Shown here piece after piece: positions 5,582-18,402 of a DNA stretch of 25,582 nucleotides; within the stretch, counting starts at the first letter, position 1; every line of letters starts with the position of its first letter. The stretch comes from a virus: positions 1 through 25,582 of the IMG/VR virus record IMGVR_UViG_3300031673_000433; one strand, written 5' to 3'. Both the position numbers and the translations under genes were made by a program. Below the pieces are notes generated by a model, which worked only from the letters and a program-made list of their open reading frames with translations, did not search any database and had not been told where the DNA came from.

Positions 5582-5946
5582 AGTTTCAATATTTGATGAA
5601 GGATAAAATATAAAAGACAGAAGTCCAGGAACATCGTTTGTTCCTTTATTCTATGGCAGCGTTGGATATACCAGCGTGTTAGCTCCGTATCCTTGTGTAT
5701 CCCTATCGCATCATAAATGTTTTTGATATGGGTATCTACTGTCAGGGGAGAGATAAAAAGCCTATCGGCAATTTCTTTGTGGCTAAAACCATAAGAAATC
5801 AGTCTTACAATGTTTAACTCCCTCGCTGATAGTTGTGGGCATTTAATTTTCATCCAGTGTCTGGCTTCAATTAATCTTTGATGGTTCTGTCTGAGTAAAA
5901 TTTTATTCATAAGCAGTTTGTTAGATTCGCTCACCCGTCCAGGCAT
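5578..5946 (-). CDS. LuxR/GerE-type helix-turn-helix regulator
   Basis: 122 residues. The core is LSARELNIVRLISYGFSHKE followed by IADRLFISPLTVDTHIKNIY, a textbook GerE/LuxR C-terminal HTH at about residues 40-85. There is no receiver or autoinducer domain, so it would work as a stand-alone DNA-binding domain. The tail (FLDFCLLYFILHQILKL) is strongly hydrophobic and may be a dimer or membrane-contact helix. Translation from 5946 overlaps the upstream gene by 26 nt. An in-frame ATG at 5910-5908 would avoid the overlap. As the second gene of the early operon, it probably regulates phage early or middle transcription. Confidence 0.75.
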   Translation of the reverse strand: MPGRVSESNKLLMNKILLRQNHQRLIEARHWMKIKCPQLSARELNIVRLISYGFSHKEIADRLFISPLTVDTHIKNIYDAIGIHKDTELTRWYIQRCHRIKEQTMFLDFCLLYFILHQILKL

Positions 5947-6181
5947 TTAAACTGAATCTGCTGAATATCTCCTGTATGACAGGTACCTCGTTTTCCCTTA
6001 GTGGAGATTCTCCGCTTCGCTTGTAGTAAAATGAGGAGGGCGACCAGTGCAGACGCTTCTGCAGTTCCCTGCGGGCAATCATTCTGAATCTGCTGGGTAG
6101 GTTTTCAAATGCATCAGAAAAGCCATTGTAATTGACTTTGGGAGATAATTTTGCCCTGTTTTTGGTATTTGTTATTTCCAT
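5921..6181 (-). CDS. Cro-position small DNA-binding-like protein
   Basis: 86 residues, first gene of the leftward early operon and divergent from the repressor gene at 6284. The segment RRELQKRLHWSPSSFYYKRS resembles a helix-turn-helix, followed by LRENEVPVIQEIFSRF. Position and size match Cro-like regulators in temperate phages. The HTH is judged by eye only. The ATG at 6181-6179 lies downstream of a good -7 element at 6211-6218. Confidence 0.6.
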   Translation of the reverse strand: MEITNTKNRAKLSPKVNYNGFSDAFENLPSRFRMIARRELQKRLHWSPSSFYYKRSGESPLRENEVPVIQEIFSRFSLNAWTGERI

Positions 6182-10369: not shown

Positions 10370-10711
10370 TTATTCAGTAGTAAAATATAAGGTATTATCA
10401 TCCCATGTACCCAAAGCGGCATATTGTTCGGCCGTACCAGACCAGAAATCTTTTGAAGAAATACTACCGTGGGTATGATCAGAAACTGCATAATCTGTAC
10501 TATCAGTATAAGCAGCCGAACCGAGCCCCAGGATTGTCTTGACCTGAGTAAGTGTTTTTACTAACCATGCAAATGGCGAAGCACCACTGACAATAAAACT
10601 ACTCTCCTGGGCCGCGGTAGGTTTACCGGAAATACCATTCCATGTAGCACCGTCTGTCATCTCAACAGCGATGGTCTCCTCAACAATCGTTACATCAATA
10701 GTGTCTGCCAT
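10370..10711 (-). CDS. Small trimeric-type tail fiber / minor structural protein
   Basis: 113 residues. GATWNGISGKPTA and YAVSDHTHGSISS are typical of phage fiber stalks (the HTHG motif often lines a trimer axis). The C-terminus FWSGTAEQYAALGTWDDNTL then YFTTE matches the WxGTxxEYxAL...DNTLYF end of Phage_fiber_2-type head/tail fiber proteins. The stop abuts the next gene's ATG and its start overlaps the previous gene by one base. It probably bridges the baseplate protein and the repeat-bearing fiber. Confidence 0.7.
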   Translation of the reverse strand: MADTIDVTIVEETIAVEMTDGATWNGISGKPTAAQESSFIVSGASPFAWLVKTLTQVKTILGLGSAAYTDSTDYAVSDHTHGSISSKDFWSGTAEQYAALGTWDDNTLYFTTE

Positions 10712-11061
10712 TATGATATTCTTTTAGTCGTTACGTCTTCAATCTCACAAAAACCTGATTTGGTGTTTAGTTGCACTAATGGATCGGCTTTGTAAATTCT
10801 TATGTCCCACCGGTAATCGCCCACGGTAATATCTGTCTGTTCAGTATTAAGTTCGAGAACCGTTATCCCGTTTTCCTCATCTGTATGTTCAGTTATATCT
10901 TTAGTGATTAAAGAAGCATCATCATTATCAGCATGATCATTTCTGCTTTTCACGGTAAAAAAAACTGTTTTACCTGTCAAATCGTAAGGATTACCAGCCG
11001 AATTCCTGATCGTTATCGTGGCATTATACGGATTGCCCTTTTGTATTGTCAGTCTTCCCAT
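10711..11061 (-). CDS. BppU-like baseplate Ig-fold domain protein
   Basis: 116 residues. The pattern NPYDLTGKTVFFTVKSRND, then DASLITKDI, GITVLELNTEQTDITVGDY and RWDIRIYK resembles the N-terminal domain of lactococcal baseplate protein BppU (DUF2479-type): an Ig-like beta-sandwich that holds receptor-binding proteins. Adjacent to two fiber-type proteins, it likely anchors them to the tail tip. Family assignment is by pattern only. Confidence 0.65.
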   Translation of the reverse strand: MGRLTIQKGNPYNATITIRNSAGNPYDLTGKTVFFTVKSRNDHADNDDASLITKDITEHTDEENGITVLELNTEQTDITVGDYRWDIRIYKADPLVQLNTKSGFCEIEDVTTKRIS

Positions 11062-11829: not shown

Positions 11830-12261
11830 TTAAAAATCTCTTTCGTTTGGTATCAGTTCAAAGTGTGGCTCATCTCTGAACCTATCATCTTTGATATCAT
11901 TGTTCATATCAAAATCAGCACCCAGCCTGATGCGATGTGTAATCACTCCGGTACTGTACAGCTTATATGCGACTCCTTTAACAAATCCGGCAAAGAAAAG
12001 TAATTGTTCACGCGTCCAGTCTATTTTATTTTTAACATACGGTGCGGCATCAGTGGCCCAGCTGGGGATCCTGTTGTGTTTACTCTGTGGATATTTCAGT
12101 TTTGACTTTCCTTCCGCATAGGCCTTATCCTGCTCCTCCTTTTCCCGGTGTCCGCAGACTATCGTACAATCCATTTCCTGTCCAACGTGGGCAAACAATA
12201 TCTGCAGATCCACGTGGCAGGTCCTGAGCCTTGCTTTTGATGTCTTGCTGAAGTGGTTCAT
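11830..12261 (-). CDS. Endolysin, M15-family peptidoglycan peptidase
   Basis: 143 residues. The M15 (VanY/T5 endolysin-like) zinc site is visible: SKHN with His62, WATDAAP with Asp71, DEPHFEL with His133, and Glu131 as the catalytic base. CGHREKEEQDKAYAEGKSKL just before is the usual substrate-side helix of the family. It should cut the peptide stems of peptidoglycan. No signal peptide is present, so it needs a holin. The ATG overlaps the stop of the upstream small membrane protein (ATGA), and two more membrane proteins follow. Confidence 0.9.
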   Translation of the reverse strand: MNHFSKTSKARLRTCHVDLQILFAHVGQEMDCTIVCGHREKEEQDKAYAEGKSKLKYPQSKHNRIPSWATDAAPYVKNKIDWTREQLLFFAGFVKGVAYKLYSTGVITHRIRLGADFDMNNDIKDDRFRDEPHFELIPNERDF

Positions 12262-12458
12262 CTCTTTTTAGTTTTTGAAAAGAGCCAATCCAACAGCAAC
12301 TTAATAAGATAGCCAGTTAATGTGCCGACAATAGTTAGTACTATCAATGACGTCACAACACTCCATTCGGGCATGAATTTACTTATCTGTGTCAGTGCTC
12401 CTGTGGTACCACCAACAACGGGTAGGGATTCGGTTGAGAAGATTGCTTTGTAGATCAT
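12258..12458 (-). CDS. Small single-helix membrane protein upstream of endolysin
   Basis: 66 residues. One strong hydrophobic helix (VVTSLIVLTIVGTLTGYLIK) runs into an amphipathic LLLDWLFSK and a basic end KTKKR. Size, one helix and basic C-terminus fit a class III holin or antiholin. Its stop overlaps the endolysin start. It is the first gene after a 99-bp gap and may head the lysis module. No consensus promoter is obvious in that gap. Confidence 0.6.
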   Translation of the reverse strand: MIYKAIFSTESLPVVGGTTGALTQISKFMPEWSVVTSLIVLTIVGTLTGYLIKLLLDWLFSKTKKR

Positions 12459-12542
12459 GTCGGAATTGTTATTGTCATTGTTTATAGTAATTAATCATTT
12501 AATTCGCTGTGATAATTGTTTTCCAAATTGTACTATAATTAG

Positions 12543-12565
12543 TTTATTAAAATACTTTTAATAAA
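12543..12565 (-). terminator. A/T-only hairpin over the end of the HYR-like gene (weak)
   Basis: TTTATTAAAA, three bases, TTTTAATAAA: a perfect 10-bp inverted repeat covering the stop at 12558-12560. It has no G/C in the stem and no U-tract, so termination would be inefficient. It may be a pause or a chance product of A/T richness at the cassette edge. Confidence 0.25.
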
Positions 12566-13127
12566 TTTGTAAAATTAAACTATCCGGCACAAATGTTATT
12601 ACTCTTCGTCCCATCTTATTTTTTGCATAAGCTGGAGGTGTCCAAATAATCATAGTGTTTTTATAGTACGTAGAATCCCTATCGTTTTCTGGAATGTTAT
12701 AAAACTCATAAGGGAATGTGGCATCAAACTCCTCCATTTTATCCAACACCATCAGGTCGGCCATATTATAAAACCTGTCAATAATATTCCACGTGGCATC
12801 ACTTGACAAAGTATCCCAATTAATTATCGGAGGTATTGTGTCTAAAAGTGTAACTGTGAAACTAATCTCTGCTATATTATTAGATATATCCGCAGCTCGA
12901 ATAAAGACTGTCGCTATCGGATTAGTTGCAGTCAGCAGGAATCCAGGCAACGGAGCCTGAATAATAGAATTGATTGCACAGTTATCAAGAACAGTAACTC
13001 TCGGAACATAGTTAGGCAGTGAAGCTTCACAGCCTGCACCAGCATAGATAGTCTGTGGTGGAATCTGACTCAGGACGCACTTACACCCTGTAAATAAAAC
13101 CAGTAAAAGAAACATTGATTTTTTCAT
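12558..13127 (-). CDS. Secreted HYR-domain-like protein downstream of the ECF sigma factor
   Basis: 189 residues. Signal peptide MKKSMFLLLVLFTGCKCVLS, possibly a lipobox at FTGC. Residues about 22-105 resemble one HYR (hyalin-type Ig-like) domain: PPQTIYAGAGCEASLPNYVP, VTVLDNCAINSI, PIATVFIRAADISNNIAEIS, then TVTLLDTIPP. Such domains are common in Bacteroidota surface adhesins. The C-terminal 80 residues match no family I know. Its ATG overlaps the sigma-factor stop (ATGA), so the two are co-translated. Expected in periplasm or on the cell surface, not in a virion unless the signal is skipped. Function unknown. Confidence 0.65.
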   Translation of the reverse strand: MKKSMFLLLVLFTGCKCVLSQIPPQTIYAGAGCEASLPNYVPRVTVLDNCAINSIIQAPLPGFLLTATNPIATVFIRAADISNNIAEISFTVTLLDTIPPIINWDTLSSDATWNIIDRFYNMADLMVLDKMEEFDATFPYEFYNIPENDRDSTYYKNTMIIWTPPAYAKNKMGRRVITFVPDSLILQIY

Positions 13128-13600
13128 GATAATAATTTTTTAAGTTTTTTTCTTCCTCTATGTAAATAACTTTGTATTATACCCATTGATAAATTCATTA
13201 TTTCCGCAATCTCATTGTATTGATACCCTTCTGATCGCAGGTTAATAATTTCCTTATATGGTGATTCTAATTGCTCAATAGCTTTTTCAATTTTACTAAT
13301 TTGATCTTTATTAATCAACTCCTGCTCAGGGTTAAGACAGTCCAACCTCATATTATAATCCAATTCCTTAAAGTTGCAAGGAATATAACTTTTATGTTTT
13401 ATAAAGTCCAAAGTTGTATTTCTGCCTATCTTAAACAACCATGTAGAAAACTTATAATCAGGTGTAAACTTACCTTCATAAGCTTTCATAAACGTCACTT
13501 GCGTTAAATCTTCCGCATCACATAGGTTATTTACCATGCTGTAAATCATAAAGAATAGCGGATTCCTGTATTGTTTTACTATATTATCAAATTCTACCAT
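13124..13600 (-). CDS. ECF-type RNA polymerase sigma factor in the late operon
   Basis: 158 residues. Region 2 is clear: NNLCDAEDLTQVTFMKAYEG, then FSTWLFKIGRNTTLDFIKHK. Region 4 likewise: SPYKEIINLRSEGYQYNEIA, then EIMNLSMGIIQSYLHRGRKK. There is no region 1.1 or 3, as expected for an ECF factor. It would redirect host RNA polymerase to a special promoter set. It overlaps the lyase gene upstream by 7 nt and the HYR-like gene downstream by 4 nt. No anti-sigma gene is seen. An ECF factor inside tail/lysis genes is unusual. It could drive phage lysis or late genes, host envelope genes, or be cargo. Confidence 0.88.
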   Translation of the reverse strand: MVEFDNIVKQYRNPLFFMIYSMVNNLCDAEDLTQVTFMKAYEGKFTPDYKFSTWLFKIGRNTTLDFIKHKSYIPCNFKELDYNMRLDCLNPEQELINKDQISKIEKAIEQLESPYKEIINLRSEGYQYNEIAEIMNLSMGIIQSYLHRGRKKLKKLLS

Positions 13601-15075
13601 TTTATACGCTCTCCACTATATTTTATAACCCCACCATATTTTAAAATCCTTTTTATAATTTCATCCAAGTCTGGGGAGGTATCCCCAAATATATATTCAA
13701 ATGCACCTAAATCTGGAGCAGTCCCTTCATAAGATAATTCTACATTTACACCGGCATTTATTAAATCGGATGTTGATGTAAGTCTAAGAAAATCAAGATT
13801 AGGAAGTGACCCATCTGATTGTCTAGCACCATCAACACCAGTACTATTTAGACTTACAAAATCCACATCACTTACAGTTACACCACCATCCCATGTATTA
13901 TGATCATGAATGAAATTAGTCTGGTTAACCCAATTGCTTCCAGTATTAAGGTAACTGATATTATTACGAAAAATACTCGCTGTGTTTCTGTTGTTATAAA
14001 ATCCCTGAGAACCATTCTTGTAAGATACATTGTTATAAAGTGTTCCCTTCGCTTCGCATTCACTCTGATCTATTCCTATTGACCTGTTATTAAAAGCAAG
14101 GCAATTTTTCATCACAACTGCTATCGGATTGCCGGATTCATAACCTTGCGTGGCTCCCCACTTGATGCCCGTTCCATTACCGTCTCTGCGACCATTATCC
14201 CATGACCAGCAGTTCTGCCATGTTATATAACCTCCTTTATTTCCTGCATCGGAAGCAAAACGGTCAAAGCCATCGTCACTATTTGCCCACGCCCTGCAAC
14301 CGATAAAGAACGTATGATAACCCCCGGTACTACCATAATGTGAAGCTATGAACCCGTCAGCGAATCCGCCATCATCCAGATAATCTTCATTATGATAAGA
14401 ATCACAATTAATAAAATATCCATAATCGGAGAATCCGTTTACAGCGAATCCCGGCCCTGAATTATGTCTTGAGACACACCTCTCGATTGTTATATAATTC
14501 GATGACTGTATCATAAAACCGGCTGCTAAAGCACCGTTCTCCGGCACGTTTTGAACAATCAGCCCTTTAATAGTCATATAGGGACTATTAACAATATTTA
14601 TTCCTCGCTTCGCACTGCCGTTGGTTGGGAAAGACGCACAATTAAGAATTGGTATTTCTTCTTGGTAAGCCTCAATACACACAGGATTCCCGGACGTGCC
14701 TCCCTTACCATTGATATAAACTCCGTTCCAATTACCGTAGCCGGAGAAGCCGGATGTATTATAAGTACCACCCCTGATATAAACTAAATCTCCCGCCACC
14801 GCCGTATTAAAGCCTTTTTGCCATGTTGCCCACGGAGAATTGATCGTCCCGGGGTTAATATCATTACCCCCATTCGCAGGAGTTGCTATATAGTATGTTG
14901 CCCCTTTAAGAGTAGCGGCAAATAATAAGAGTAATATTATAAGTGACTTTTTCATTACTGAAATGGATGAGTAGTTCCCGTAGTTGCCGGTTTGAGTAAT
15001 AGAATATCGGCAGGTGTTAATCTCATCCTTACTTCGTGGATGCTTTATTTCATCTTTTAATATTTTTACTTCCAT
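13594..15075 (-). CDS. PL9-type parallel beta-helix polysaccharide lyase with internal signal peptide
   Basis: 493 residues. Residues 1-40 (MEVKILKDEIKHPR onward to YSSISV) look like the start of a phage structural protein. Residue 41 begins a complete signal peptide (MKKSLIILLLLFAATLKG; ATG at 14955). The rest is a right-handed beta-helix of the PL9 pectate-lyase family. FADGFI (Asp240) and SDDGFD (Asp267, 268, 271) match the Pel9A calcium ligands. Lys305 (GTGIKWG) stands where the catalytic Lys is expected. It may act as a tail-spike depolymerase or, from Met41, as a secreted lyase. It follows the tail-tip gene by 18 nt and overlaps the sigma gene by 7 nt. Confidence 0.75.
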   Translation of the reverse strand: MEVKILKDEIKHPRSKDEINTCRYSITQTGNYGNYSSISVMKKSLIILLLLFAATLKGATYYIATPANGGNDINPGTINSPWATWQKGFNTAVAGDLVYIRGGTYNTSGFSGYGNWNGVYINGKGGTSGNPVCIEAYQEEIPILNCASFPTNGSAKRGINIVNSPYMTIKGLIVQNVPENGALAAGFMIQSSNYITIERCVSRHNSGPGFAVNGFSDYGYFINCDSYHNEDYLDDGGFADGFIASHYGSTGGYHTFFIGCRAWANSDDGFDRFASDAGNKGGYITWQNCWSWDNGRRDGNGTGIKWGATQGYESGNPIAVVMKNCLAFNNRSIGIDQSECEAKGTLYNNVSYKNGSQGFYNNRNTASIFRNNISYLNTGSNWVNQTNFIHDHNTWDGGVTVSDVDFVSLNSTGVDGARQSDGSLPNLDFLRLTSTSDLINAGVNVELSYEGTAPDLGAFEYIFGDTSPDLDEIIKRILKYGGVIKYSGERIKW

Positions 15076-15093
15076 TACTATATAATTTTTTTA

Positions 15094-18000
15094 TCAAACT
15101 TGTCCTCCATCTGTTATTGTCCAACCGTGACCACCGCTACCAACTGCTAAAACAAGATGTGCTCTTGCAGCAGCAGCAGCACCACCGGCAGTATATTTTG
15201 CAGTTCCAGCATGAAAGGGAACATCATTTTTTACATCTTGTGCAGACCAGGCTATTAATAAAGCATCATAGTTTGATGTTGTCATCTTAAAAGCATCCAG
15301 GAACATATCGAACATACTTGTAACATTTACAACATTGAATCCCGATATATTTTGATTGAAAGCCAAACAATTACAAAACATATCATACATAGACGTGACC
15401 AATGCCGTATCAAAATTAGCAACAGACTGATTAAAAAGCCAGCAACCATAAAACATCTGATACATAGTCGTCACTTTTGCCGTATCGAAATTAGCCACTG
15501 ACTGATTAAAAACCCAGCAACTTGTAAACACACCATACATGGTCGTCACTTTTGCCGTATCGAAATTAGCAACAGACTGATTGAATTTATGACAGTCGCA
15601 AAACATATAAGTCATATCCGTCACTTCTGCCGTATCAAAATTAGCAACAGACTGATTAAAAGCCCAACAATTATAAAACATATATGACATATCCGTGACC
15701 AATGATGTATTAAAATTGGCAACAGACCCGTTGAATTTAAAACAATCACGAAACATGTACGACATATTCGTAACATCATTCGTGTTCGGTTGATCTCCAT
15801 ACGTTGCTATCAAGTTTAAACAACCGTAAAAACTTTTTTCCATAGAACGCCAAACACCAGTTCCCCAATTTTTTATTTCAATTAACTTTAACTTATCACC
15901 GGCATCATTGAAATATATCTGCGGGAAAGTACCTGATATACTAACTTCCTTAATACCAATTGTTGCGTAAATATGTGTAATTGTCCCTGGTGTATTTAGT
16001 GTGCCACCAACATAATCATCTGAACTACCATCACCCCAATCAACTTTACAGTTATATCCATTTGAATAAGTAGGAATAACAATTGTCTTCGTTGCTGATC
16101 CTGTCTTTTCAGTATCAAAGGTCATAATAAAGGAACTCGTTTCCGTCCCTATCTCAAAAAGATCAAGATTCCACATCCGGTTTCTCTCATCAAAATCACC
16201 CCTGTTAATAACAAAAACACGAGCTTTACCGTCAAGAGTGTTTATTGTGTCTTGAATATTTCCTAAAAGGTTGATTGCCATTTGTCCGGAAGTGTCCATA
16301 ATAGGCATCTGAATCAATTGCTTAGGTCTGCTGTACTGATCTGCTATCTCATCACATATTATCTGTGAGAGTTCTTTCATTTCTACCGTCCATCTGCGAC
16401 TCCATGAGATCGTAGGATTTAATGTATAAGCAGGTGTGGTATGTGTTACTATCCCGTCCATTGTACCTGACTTATAAGTAACCGCAGCATCATCAAAATC
16501 CATACCTGCCACATCTGATGTGAAGATAACATCCTCACCGTCACTTGTCACCGTGATTTCTACCGCTGCAAAATCAGCGGCATTGTCAGTAACAAAGTCA
16601 ATAGCTGTCTGTGTTAAAGTTGAATTAAATACTACCGATCCTCCTGCACCTCCGCAACTTATAGCAATAATACCACTACTGCCCGTTAATCTGACTTTAT
16701 CAACCTTAAACTGCAAATCTCCTATAATTGCCAGAGCACCGGCAAACTGCTCCAGTACATTTTCAATATTAGCATCAACCACATCGCCAAGTAAACAATC
16801 ATATTCAACCTCTTCGCCATTGATAGGATTGGTTTTAGTATAATCTTTTCCTTTTGTATTTCTTATTTTGGAAGTTTTGTAAACTGTTCTTTGTCTCATT
16901 TTACTATAAAATATTCCAAGAAATCTATCTCTTTGATAAGGTAGTACCTGCATACTTTCCATTGCAGACATTTCTTCAGAATTGACAAAAAACTTAATAT
17001 TTTTAAACCCTGTTATAAAGTCAATCTCATCCCCGGCAGCATGAGAACCATATAATGTTATTGTATAAGATCCATTTGCCTCTAAACCAGTTAATAATAT
17101 CCCCTTCCATGTTTTCCATTCACTAATACCATTCGGAACAACATATATAAAATCTACATAATCTTCAGTATCAACCCATGCAAGGATATTAGCACCACTA
17201 CGGGTTAAATATTTTGAATTTGTATTGTTTTTTACTTGAATAGAAATTGTAACAGCATTGATACTACCATCATGCCAACTATATGTCATCCAGTCAAATG
17301 AAAAACCAAATTTATCTGTTGCACTAATTATAGCATTGATACCAAAAATTTGACTGATTTTGTAAGTATATGGAATGGCATGTGAAGGAAGAGCACAACC
17401 ATCTGTTTCCGTTGTTATCCAATTTGTTAAAGGAGTACTCCCATTATTTGTCCAATAATCCCATGTACCCGGACCAACATGATAAGTATCACCTTTAAAT
17501 TCCCAATTGTCTAACCATGATTCTTTCCATCCATAATCTTGTTTTATTGTTACTTTCTTTGCCGGGGATTGCATCATCTTTACTCCACCAGGGACTTGTC
17601 TGATCGTGCTTGAAGGATGCGTGTCTGGACGATAAATAAACTGATCGGGTGTGATAATAACTGAGTTTTTTGTTGTCGCATCGGTGAAGTATCTGCCTGC
17701 CACGCTGTCCCCTATCATCTCCGTGGGTCTGGTGATATAAAACACCCCGTAACTCTGCCGGATAATAGCATTGAAAGAATTAAGAATCTTCTCAAGCACC
17801 TCATAACAGTACATATCCTTGAAAATATCCACGTCTGGAAATGTCTGATCAAAGGGTGAATCATCAACACTATCAGCCATCCTATTTTCATAGATATTAC
17901 AAAACTCGTAAAATGAAGTAAAACCTATTTTTGCAAGTATATCAAGTATGATCTGGCTCTCCCGGATACGTCCGTTGTATGGCGTTCCCGGACTTTCCTC

Positions 18001-18402
18001 GTAGAGAATATTTTTAAGCAATGTCAATCCGTCAATGCAACAGACAGACACGGAATAAGGCACCGGCCCATATTGCTCCGTACACTGATGAGGGTCAATG
18101 TACCCCGTCCAGTATAAATTTTCTCCATTAAAGATTTCTACTTTATGGTACATATCTTCGACTGAATATAATTCTGCCAAAGCAAACATGCTAAAAGACC
18201 ATACCGTCAGAATGACTCTTGAGCTCTTGATGGGATCAAAGGGATCATCGGATTTATTACAAAACTCAAATCTCAGAGGGGTACTGCCTGCTCCGATAAG
18301 AGTGGTGACAACGCCAGAATAACCATCCTGATATATTTTTACTGTCCCCAAAACATTAAAGCGGTCCCGCAACAGTGCTTTATATTTTTCTCCCCATACC
18401 AT
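15094..18402 (-). CDS. Central tail-tip / baseplate protein with C-terminal BspA-like repeats
   Basis: 1102 residues, directly after the tape measure gene (one-base overlap), the normal position of the tail-tip protein. The first ~550 residues look like a baseplate hub (FEFCNKSDDPFDPIKSSRVI; YWTGYIDPHQCTEQYG). Residues about 571-660 are an inserted Gly/Thr-rich beta domain. From about 775 a PKD-like module (KVDWGDGSSDDY) leads into DUF285/BspA-type repeats at 877-1050: seven units of 25 residues on VTDMSYMFYNCWAFNQSVAN FDTA. It ends WTITDGGQV, like free-standing BspA-like surface proteins. The hub appears to have captured a bacterial adhesin-type repeat domain, likely for receptor binding. 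Confidence 0.8.
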   Translation of the reverse strand: MVWGEKYKALLRDRFNVLGTVKIYQDGYSGVVTTLIGAGSTPLRFEFCNKSDDPFDPIKSSRVILTVWSFSMFALAELYSVEDMYHKVEIFNGENLYWTGYIDPHQCTEQYGPVPYSVSVCCIDGLTLLKNILYEESPGTPYNGRIRESQIILDILAKIGFTSFYEFCNIYENRMADSVDDSPFDQTFPDVDIFKDMYCYEVLEKILNSFNAIIRQSYGVFYITRPTEMIGDSVAGRYFTDATTKNSVIITPDQFIYRPDTHPSSTIRQVPGGVKMMQSPAKKVTIKQDYGWKESWLDNWEFKGDTYHVGPGTWDYWTNNGSTPLTNWITTETDGCALPSHAIPYTYKISQIFGINAIISATDKFGFSFDWMTYSWHDGSINAVTISIQVKNNTNSKYLTRSGANILAWVDTEDYVDFIYVVPNGISEWKTWKGILLTGLEANGSYTITLYGSHAAGDEIDFITGFKNIKFFVNSEEMSAMESMQVLPYQRDRFLGIFYSKMRQRTVYKTSKIRNTKGKDYTKTNPINGEEVEYDCLLGDVVDANIENVLEQFAGALAIIGDLQFKVDKVRLTGSSGIIAISCGGAGGSVVFNSTLTQTAIDFVTDNAADFAAVEITVTSDGEDVIFTSDVAGMDFDDAAVTYKSGTMDGIVTHTTPAYTLNPTISWSRRWTVEMKELSQIICDEIADQYSRPKQLIQMPIMDTSGQMAINLLGNIQDTINTLDGKARVFVINRGDFDERNRMWNLDLFEIGTETSSFIMTFDTEKTGSATKTIVIPTYSNGYNCKVDWGDGSSDDYVGGTLNTPGTITHIYATIGIKEVSISGTFPQIYFNDAGDKLKLIEIKNWGTGVWRSMEKSFYGCLNLIATYGDQPNTNDVTNMSYMFRDCFKFNGSVANFNTSLVTDMSYMFYNCWAFNQSVANFDTAEVTDMTYMFCDCHKFNQSVANFDTAKVTTMYGVFTSCWVFNQSVANFDTAKVTTMYQMFYGCWLFNQSVANFDTALVTSMYDMFCNCLAFNQNISGFNVVNVTSMFDMFLDAFKMTTSNYDALLIAWSAQDVKNDVPFHAGTAKYTAGGAAAAARAHLVLAVGSGGHGWTITDGGQV
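15256..15774 (-). repeat. 75-bp tandem repeats encoding DUF285/BspA-like units
   Basis: Seven in-frame units, starting at 15774 and every 75 bp down to 15324, the last shorter. The best conserved plus-strand block is gccgtatcaaaattagcaac, seen at 15404 and, with small changes, 15479 and further units. Central units are nearly identical at DNA level. The outer ones have diverged, as expected for an array expanded by recombination. Confidence 0.85.

Follow-up and report, generated by a model that had tools for sequence, protein, structure and literature searches.

An ECF sigma factor and an HYR-like exported protein form a two-gene cassette recurring in otherwise unrelated phage contigs

Sigma factors encoded by phages are usually regarded as switches of whole programs; the T4 gp55 and SPO1 sigma factors direct the host RNA polymerase to late promoters. 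Small AT-rich extra units of the late operon, known as morons and exemplified by bor and lom of lambdoid phages, encode envelope proteins and use a host promoter; the unit described here resembles these morons and differs from them in bringing its own sigma factor. Among phages of Bacteroidota, crAss-like and other phages encode group IV sigma factors of the ECF type (cr6_1, YP_010112684.1) that likewise consist of regions 2 and 4 and share about 30% identity with the one analyzed here; in the crAss-like phages examined, however, the sigma gene is found among other conserved genes and has no HYR-type partner.

Sporulation-like sigma factors of Bacillota phages are likewise phage-borne and are possible switches of the host program, although they belong to a different sigma group and come from a different host phylum, and the available part of the report mentions no exported partner gene (PMC9429907). 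With respect to exported proteins, the closest parallel is provided by Porphyromonas gingivalis phages, which encode signal-peptide proteins that obey the Bacteroidetes Q rule (PMC10367356). Judging by tape-measure matches, these phages are of the same broad tail type as the phage described below, and their proteins, too, are exported by Sec; neither a sigma factor nor an HYR protein is mentioned for them in the available part of that report, unlike the arrangement described here.

The tail-to-lysis slot and its lyase

The window, that is, the whole stretch of DNA analyzed here, is the entire IMG/VR viral record IMGVR_UViG_3300031673_000433 (25,582 nt, or 25.6 kb). Its late region runs from capsid through neck and tape measure to tail tip, followed by an endolysin and a weak holin match; RecT, SbcC-like and integrase genes are also present, and the integrase, taken together with the phage gene set, marks the record as all or part of a temperate phage. 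The tape-measure matches come from Bacteroidota phages, those of P. gingivalis among them, and PADLOC detected no defense family. A contig from another sample (L002) is identical to the window from the capsid to the tape measure and ends within the tape-measure gene, before the sigma-HYR cassette; in this phage, the cassette is known from one contig, the window sigma being a single sequence.

Between the tail genes and the lysis genes, a lyase, an ECF sigma factor and an HYR-like exported protein are encoded in succession on the minus strand (Table 1). The sequence-only reading had located the three ORFs correctly, including the 7-nt overlap of the lyase and sigma genes (ATGGTAG) and the 4-nt overlap of the sigma and HYR genes (ATGA), and took these overlaps to imply one translated unit. 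Overlaps of 4 nt or 1 nt are found all along the late operon of the window, and the tight overlaps of these three genes are nothing special within it.

Table 1 Features of the tail-to-lysis region, in window coordinates
Feature	Coordinates	Strand	Remarks
Small membrane protein, downstream edge of the slot	12258..12458	-	91% identical in L005
Scar, 38 nt	12499..12536	-	92% identical to the 3' end of the L005 small lipoprotein-like slot gene (TIWKTIITAN*)
HYR-like exported protein, 189 aa, cassette gene 2	12558..13127	-	Signal peptide followed by a single HYR/Ig-like domain (about residues 20-105)
ECF sigma factor, 158 aa, cassette gene 1	13124..13600	-	Regions 2 and 4 intact; GC 0.29
PL9-type lyase (beta-helix, signal peptide), 453 aa when read from the likely start	13594..14955	-	Pel9A-like matches; tail-slot resident
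Scar, 63 nt	14961..15023	-	90% identical to the 3' end of the L005 LamG-like slot gene, in another frame
Tail-tip type protein encoded upstream of the slot	15094..18402	-	N-terminal part 63% identical in L005; C-terminal DUF285 repeats

In related phages, the tail-tip gene and the small membrane and lysis genes enclose a slot that is occupied by runs of signal-peptide proteins (LamG-like and beta-helix proteins, lyases and a small lipoprotein-like protein), and two stretches of the window match the 3' ends of such genes in the close relative L005. The longer stretch is probably an out-of-frame remnant of a deleted slot gene. The shorter one lies in the gap at 12459-12557, which had been suggested as a place to look for a promoter; by this comparison, the gap is largely a deletion scar and no conserved regulatory region. 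The two scars show that the slot is rebuilt through cassette exchange.

Many of the relatives have 3 to 6 consecutive signal-peptide proteins after the tail-tip gene (L005 4379-10961; L048 12363-19106; L049 7376-15854; L106 4692-12060; L113 2237-7541), and some of these proteins bear a tail-fibre-like motif, 'GT.NDGTGDPLR.AF'. The DUF285 repeats at the C-terminus of the window tail-tip protein (15496-15846, Pfam E 8e-47) lie outside the part shared with L005, which suggests acquisition by a domain swap. Downstream of the lysis genes, the window encodes BppU_N-like and Phage_tail_C proteins (10370-11061), and the lysis genes are flanked on both sides by tail-type genes.

The lyase matches the Pel9A-like family of Pfam (PF22842, E 2e-16) and, over its full length, the solved structure of Pel9A (PDB 1RU4; residues 20-420, E 6e-41). 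Like Pel9A and PelN, it is predicted to be a right-handed beta-helix throughout; unlike these enzymes, it is encoded in a phage tail slot, and it scores far under the PelN equivalog cut-off. The ADGF, NSDDGFD and GNGxGxK columns, which we take to hold the Ca-binding Asp and catalytic Lys positions of Pel9A, are kept in the alignment with 1RU4, so that lyase activity is plausible. The longest ORF spans 13594-15075 on the minus strand; because the DNA at 14961-15023 matches the end of an L005 gene in another frame, the true start is probably at 14955 (MKKSLIIL...), and the first 40 codons of the long ORF are probably a spurious, non-coding extension.

That the lyase, sigma and HYR genes make up a single three-gene module, as their overlaps in one operon could indicate, appears highly improbable given how common such overlaps are across the operon and given the loci of lyase relatives. 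The same slot in related phages holds lyases 33-40% identical to that of the window and lacks the sigma gene, and none of the 17 viral loci with lyase relatives has an adjacent full-length ECF sigma gene or an HYR gene, so the proposed three-gene order was not found there. In another phage (L099), a PL9-like lyase without a signal peptide is encoded after the tail tip, and about 29 kb separate it from that phage's sigma-HYR pair, indicating that the pair moves without the lyase. The sequence-only reading had also raised the possibility of a mobile cargo module; this idea stands for the sigma and HYR genes and falls for the lyase. By these comparisons, the lyase is an ordinary tenant of the variable tail-to-lysis slot, outside the sigma-HYR cassette, and would be a capsule or polysaccharide depolymerase in its own right, belonging to the tail region.

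Two weak matches to the sigma profile among the lyase loci were rejected as other proteins, not encoded in the slot: a divergent sigma-like protein after the terminase in L109 and an HTH protein in L112. Beyond the window sigma, related phages encode two divergent sigma-like proteins (that of L109, at 5604-6065, and one in L092, at 1345-1770), one directly 3' of the terminase and one with a region-2-like part only. The profile A1, built from phage ECFs, proved too diverse for scanning.

The sigma factor and its exported partner

The window sigma contains both expected Pfam domains (Sigma70_r2, E 6e-13; r4_2, E 3e-12), matches the NCBIfam ECF model TIGR02937 over its full length (88.7 bits against a cut-off of 42.9) and aligns with the SigW and SigH structures full-length. 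Regions 2 and 4 are present, and regions 1.1 and 3 are lacking, as in group IV. The conserved residues of regions 2.2-2.4 and 4.2 are kept relative to chromosomal ECFs (AEDLTQ..F.KAY, FSTWLFKIGRN...D, Y.EIAE....G....LHRGR). By all these features, the protein is an intact ECF (group IV) factor; the earlier recognition of such a factor in the late operon of a phage, next to export-type proteins, is borne out by the domains and the late-gene surroundings. No cognate anti-sigma gene adjoins the sigma gene, and the neighboring HYR protein carries a signal peptide and lacks any anti-sigma domain; an adjacent anti-sigma gene is common, not obligatory, for ECF factors.

The best matches of the window sigma are chromosomal Bacteroidota ECFs (up to 39% identity), followed by phage ECFs (36% at most). 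These matches could point to a factor that reprograms envelope, surface or polysaccharide genes of the host in infection or lysogeny, with the HYR protein as a surface protein of that program, and sigma factors that alter host programs are known from Bacillota phages (PMC9429907). We consider such reprogramming unlikely inasmuch as no specific orthologous group of host factors emerged: the window sigma reaches no NCBIfam equivalog cut-off, and the sigma tree neither fixed its placement nor gave a supported grouping with the crAss-like phage sigmas.

The HYR-like protein belongs to a family of proteins of about 190 aa, with a signal peptide that contains an invariant Cys-x-Cys and Ser-Gln, a single HYR/Ig-like domain and another conserved part. 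Residues 20-105 of the window protein match HYR repeats found in giant surface proteins of Bacteroidota (the repeats themselves were verified as Pfam HYR); the Pfam HYR model (PF02494) gave no match to the window protein and matched one relative at E 0.017. Across about 400 Bacteroidota genomes, the matches were confined to HYR repeats within giant proteins. The full-length family was found in viral contigs only, annotated phages and plasmids contained no relatives, and the C-terminal part has counterparts only in the viral relatives. The structure model (mean pLDDT 55) is usable only for the Ig-like half (about residues 20-100). With regard to export, Cys15, a candidate lipobox residue, is invariant in all seven members of the family, three of which weakly match LPAM_1. 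The invariant Ser-Gln would equally suit cleavage by signal peptidase I, and its position at the likely cleavage site parallels the Q-rule proteins of P. gingivalis phages (PMC10367356).

The sigma-HYR cassette in other viruses

The sigma and HYR genes recur together, as a two-gene cassette, in phage contigs that are otherwise unrelated. A scan with the sigma alignment, blind to HYR, yielded 9 viral loci, in three of which (L098, L099 and L101) the next gene encodes an HYR homologue; the converse scan, which used the HYR alignment and ignored sigma, recovered the same three loci and 6 sigma-less ones, 3 of these near-identical. The three loci repeat both the gene order and the 4-nt ATGA overlap of the window pair. 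The HYR proteins of the other loci are 37-47% identical to that of the window, in most cases with the C-terminal part included. The window capsid found no match in the L098, L099 and L101 phages (a search run without a positive control), and the genomic positions differ: the window pair and the L121 HYR gene occupy the tail-lysis slot, whereas the others lie ahead of terminase or glycosyltransferase genes. Alignment queries were needed for these scans, given that searches of viral contigs with the single sigma, lyase or HYR protein gave no match; motif-based scans overlook remote relatives, and the patterns used for HYR fall within the signal peptide. No description of the pair was found in the open-access literature.

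For HYR, the partnership is optional: in L119, L120, L121 and L124-126, which represent at least four lineages, the gene occurs without sigma. In L098 and L099, a block of DNA homology extends exactly from the sigma ATG to the HYR stop, with different DNA upstream. Its recurrence in unrelated viruses makes the pair look like a transferable cassette. The dN/dS values in the L098-type lineage are 0.10-0.11 for sigma and 0.06 for HYR, rough estimates with dS near saturation for some pairs, and by this measure the pair is under purifying selection. A single origin of the two sigma-HYR pairings is not established: the window sigma and the L098-type sigmas are about 30% identical, and the best tree places them on one side of a branch with weak support (31/78).

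Alternatively, the sigma gene might be a passenger, a host ECF gene gained by illegitimate recombination in a variable slot, its adjacency to HYR being coincidental in one or both lineages. Such an origin would be compatible with the low GC content of the sigma gene, the lowest among all window genes (mean 0.42, z -2.8; the HYR gene is within the window range), as well as with its absence from relatives, the frequent occurrence of HYR without sigma and the weak tree support for one origin. Two cases of adjacency in unrelated phages with the identical ATGA overlap, the purifying selection on the L098-type sigma and the exact coincidence of the conserved block with both genes nevertheless make mere chance quite improbable.

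The sigma factor had also been proposed to drive late or lysis promoters, that is, to steer the host RNA polymerase to late promoters and time lysis. Its gene is located directly upstream of the lysis genes in the window, the L098-lineage sigma gene lies in an early-to-late region, region 4 of the L123 sigma weakly matches the antitermination protein Q, and crAss-like phages have ECF-type factors of their own. However, none of the related contigs with a readable slot has a sigma gene there according to the sigma profile search, in which the positive control and the leave-one-out test both worked. Among 20 whole related records, only one contains any sigma region-2 domain, in a 141-aa region-2-only protein encoded elsewhere, with the caveat that records lacking sigma may be incomplete. 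Phages with HYR just ahead of the terminase also do without sigma, and in the window the gene lies inside the late operon, not before it, with the downstream gap largely a deletion scar. Given that relatives whose tail and lysis genes are laid out alike, and whose late genes are the same, manage without the factor, late or lysis control is unlikely.

Possible role and surroundings of the cassette

Our preferred reading, which we hold tentatively and with slightly less than even confidence, is that sigma and HYR constitute a moron-like accessory cassette in which the sigma factor switches on its own unit and the HYR protein alters the cell envelope. As in morons, the inserted unit is absent from close relatives and atypical in composition, the latter for the sigma gene only. 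The ECF factor would recruit the host RNA polymerase to a promoter ahead of its own unit, positive autoregulation being usual for ECF factors, and perhaps also direct the polymerase to host envelope promoters; the pair could then be expressed independently of the late promoter. A scan for a host-type promoter motif gave no match before the sigma gene; the motif is of the host type, and the ECF promoter consensus may differ. The HYR/Ig-fold protein would be exported by Sec, either as a lipoprotein or after cleavage before the invariant Gln, and would modify the cell envelope during infection or lysogeny, for instance to block superinfection. We infer this course of autoregulated expression, export and envelope modification from the genes and their arrangement.

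In a more specific form of this accessory-cassette reading, which we regard as possible, the ECF factor would be dedicated to one phage-specific exported HYR/Ig protein, the two forming a self-contained, transferable unit that remodels the surface of the infected or lysogenic Bacteroidota cell. If so, a small sigma factor plus one exported protein would be a minimal way for a phage to bring a surface effector under controlled expression in Bacteroidota, the promoters of which differ from those of other bacteria. The exported phage HYR-like family becomes testable and is set apart from the arrays of signal-peptide lyases that occupy the same slot.

Several observations concern the surroundings of the pair. 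We do not claim a remnant of sigma ahead of the HYR genes of L125 and L120; the scores were slightly above the 95% mark of shuffled sequences and below the shuffled maximum. In L101 (4935-5450), about 60 nt of unrelated DNA have taken the place of the 5' part of the HYR gene, and the adjoining sigma gene is intact. Downstream of HYR in L098, L099 and L124-L126, with or without sigma, a 55-aa ORF is followed by a family 2 glycosyltransferase.
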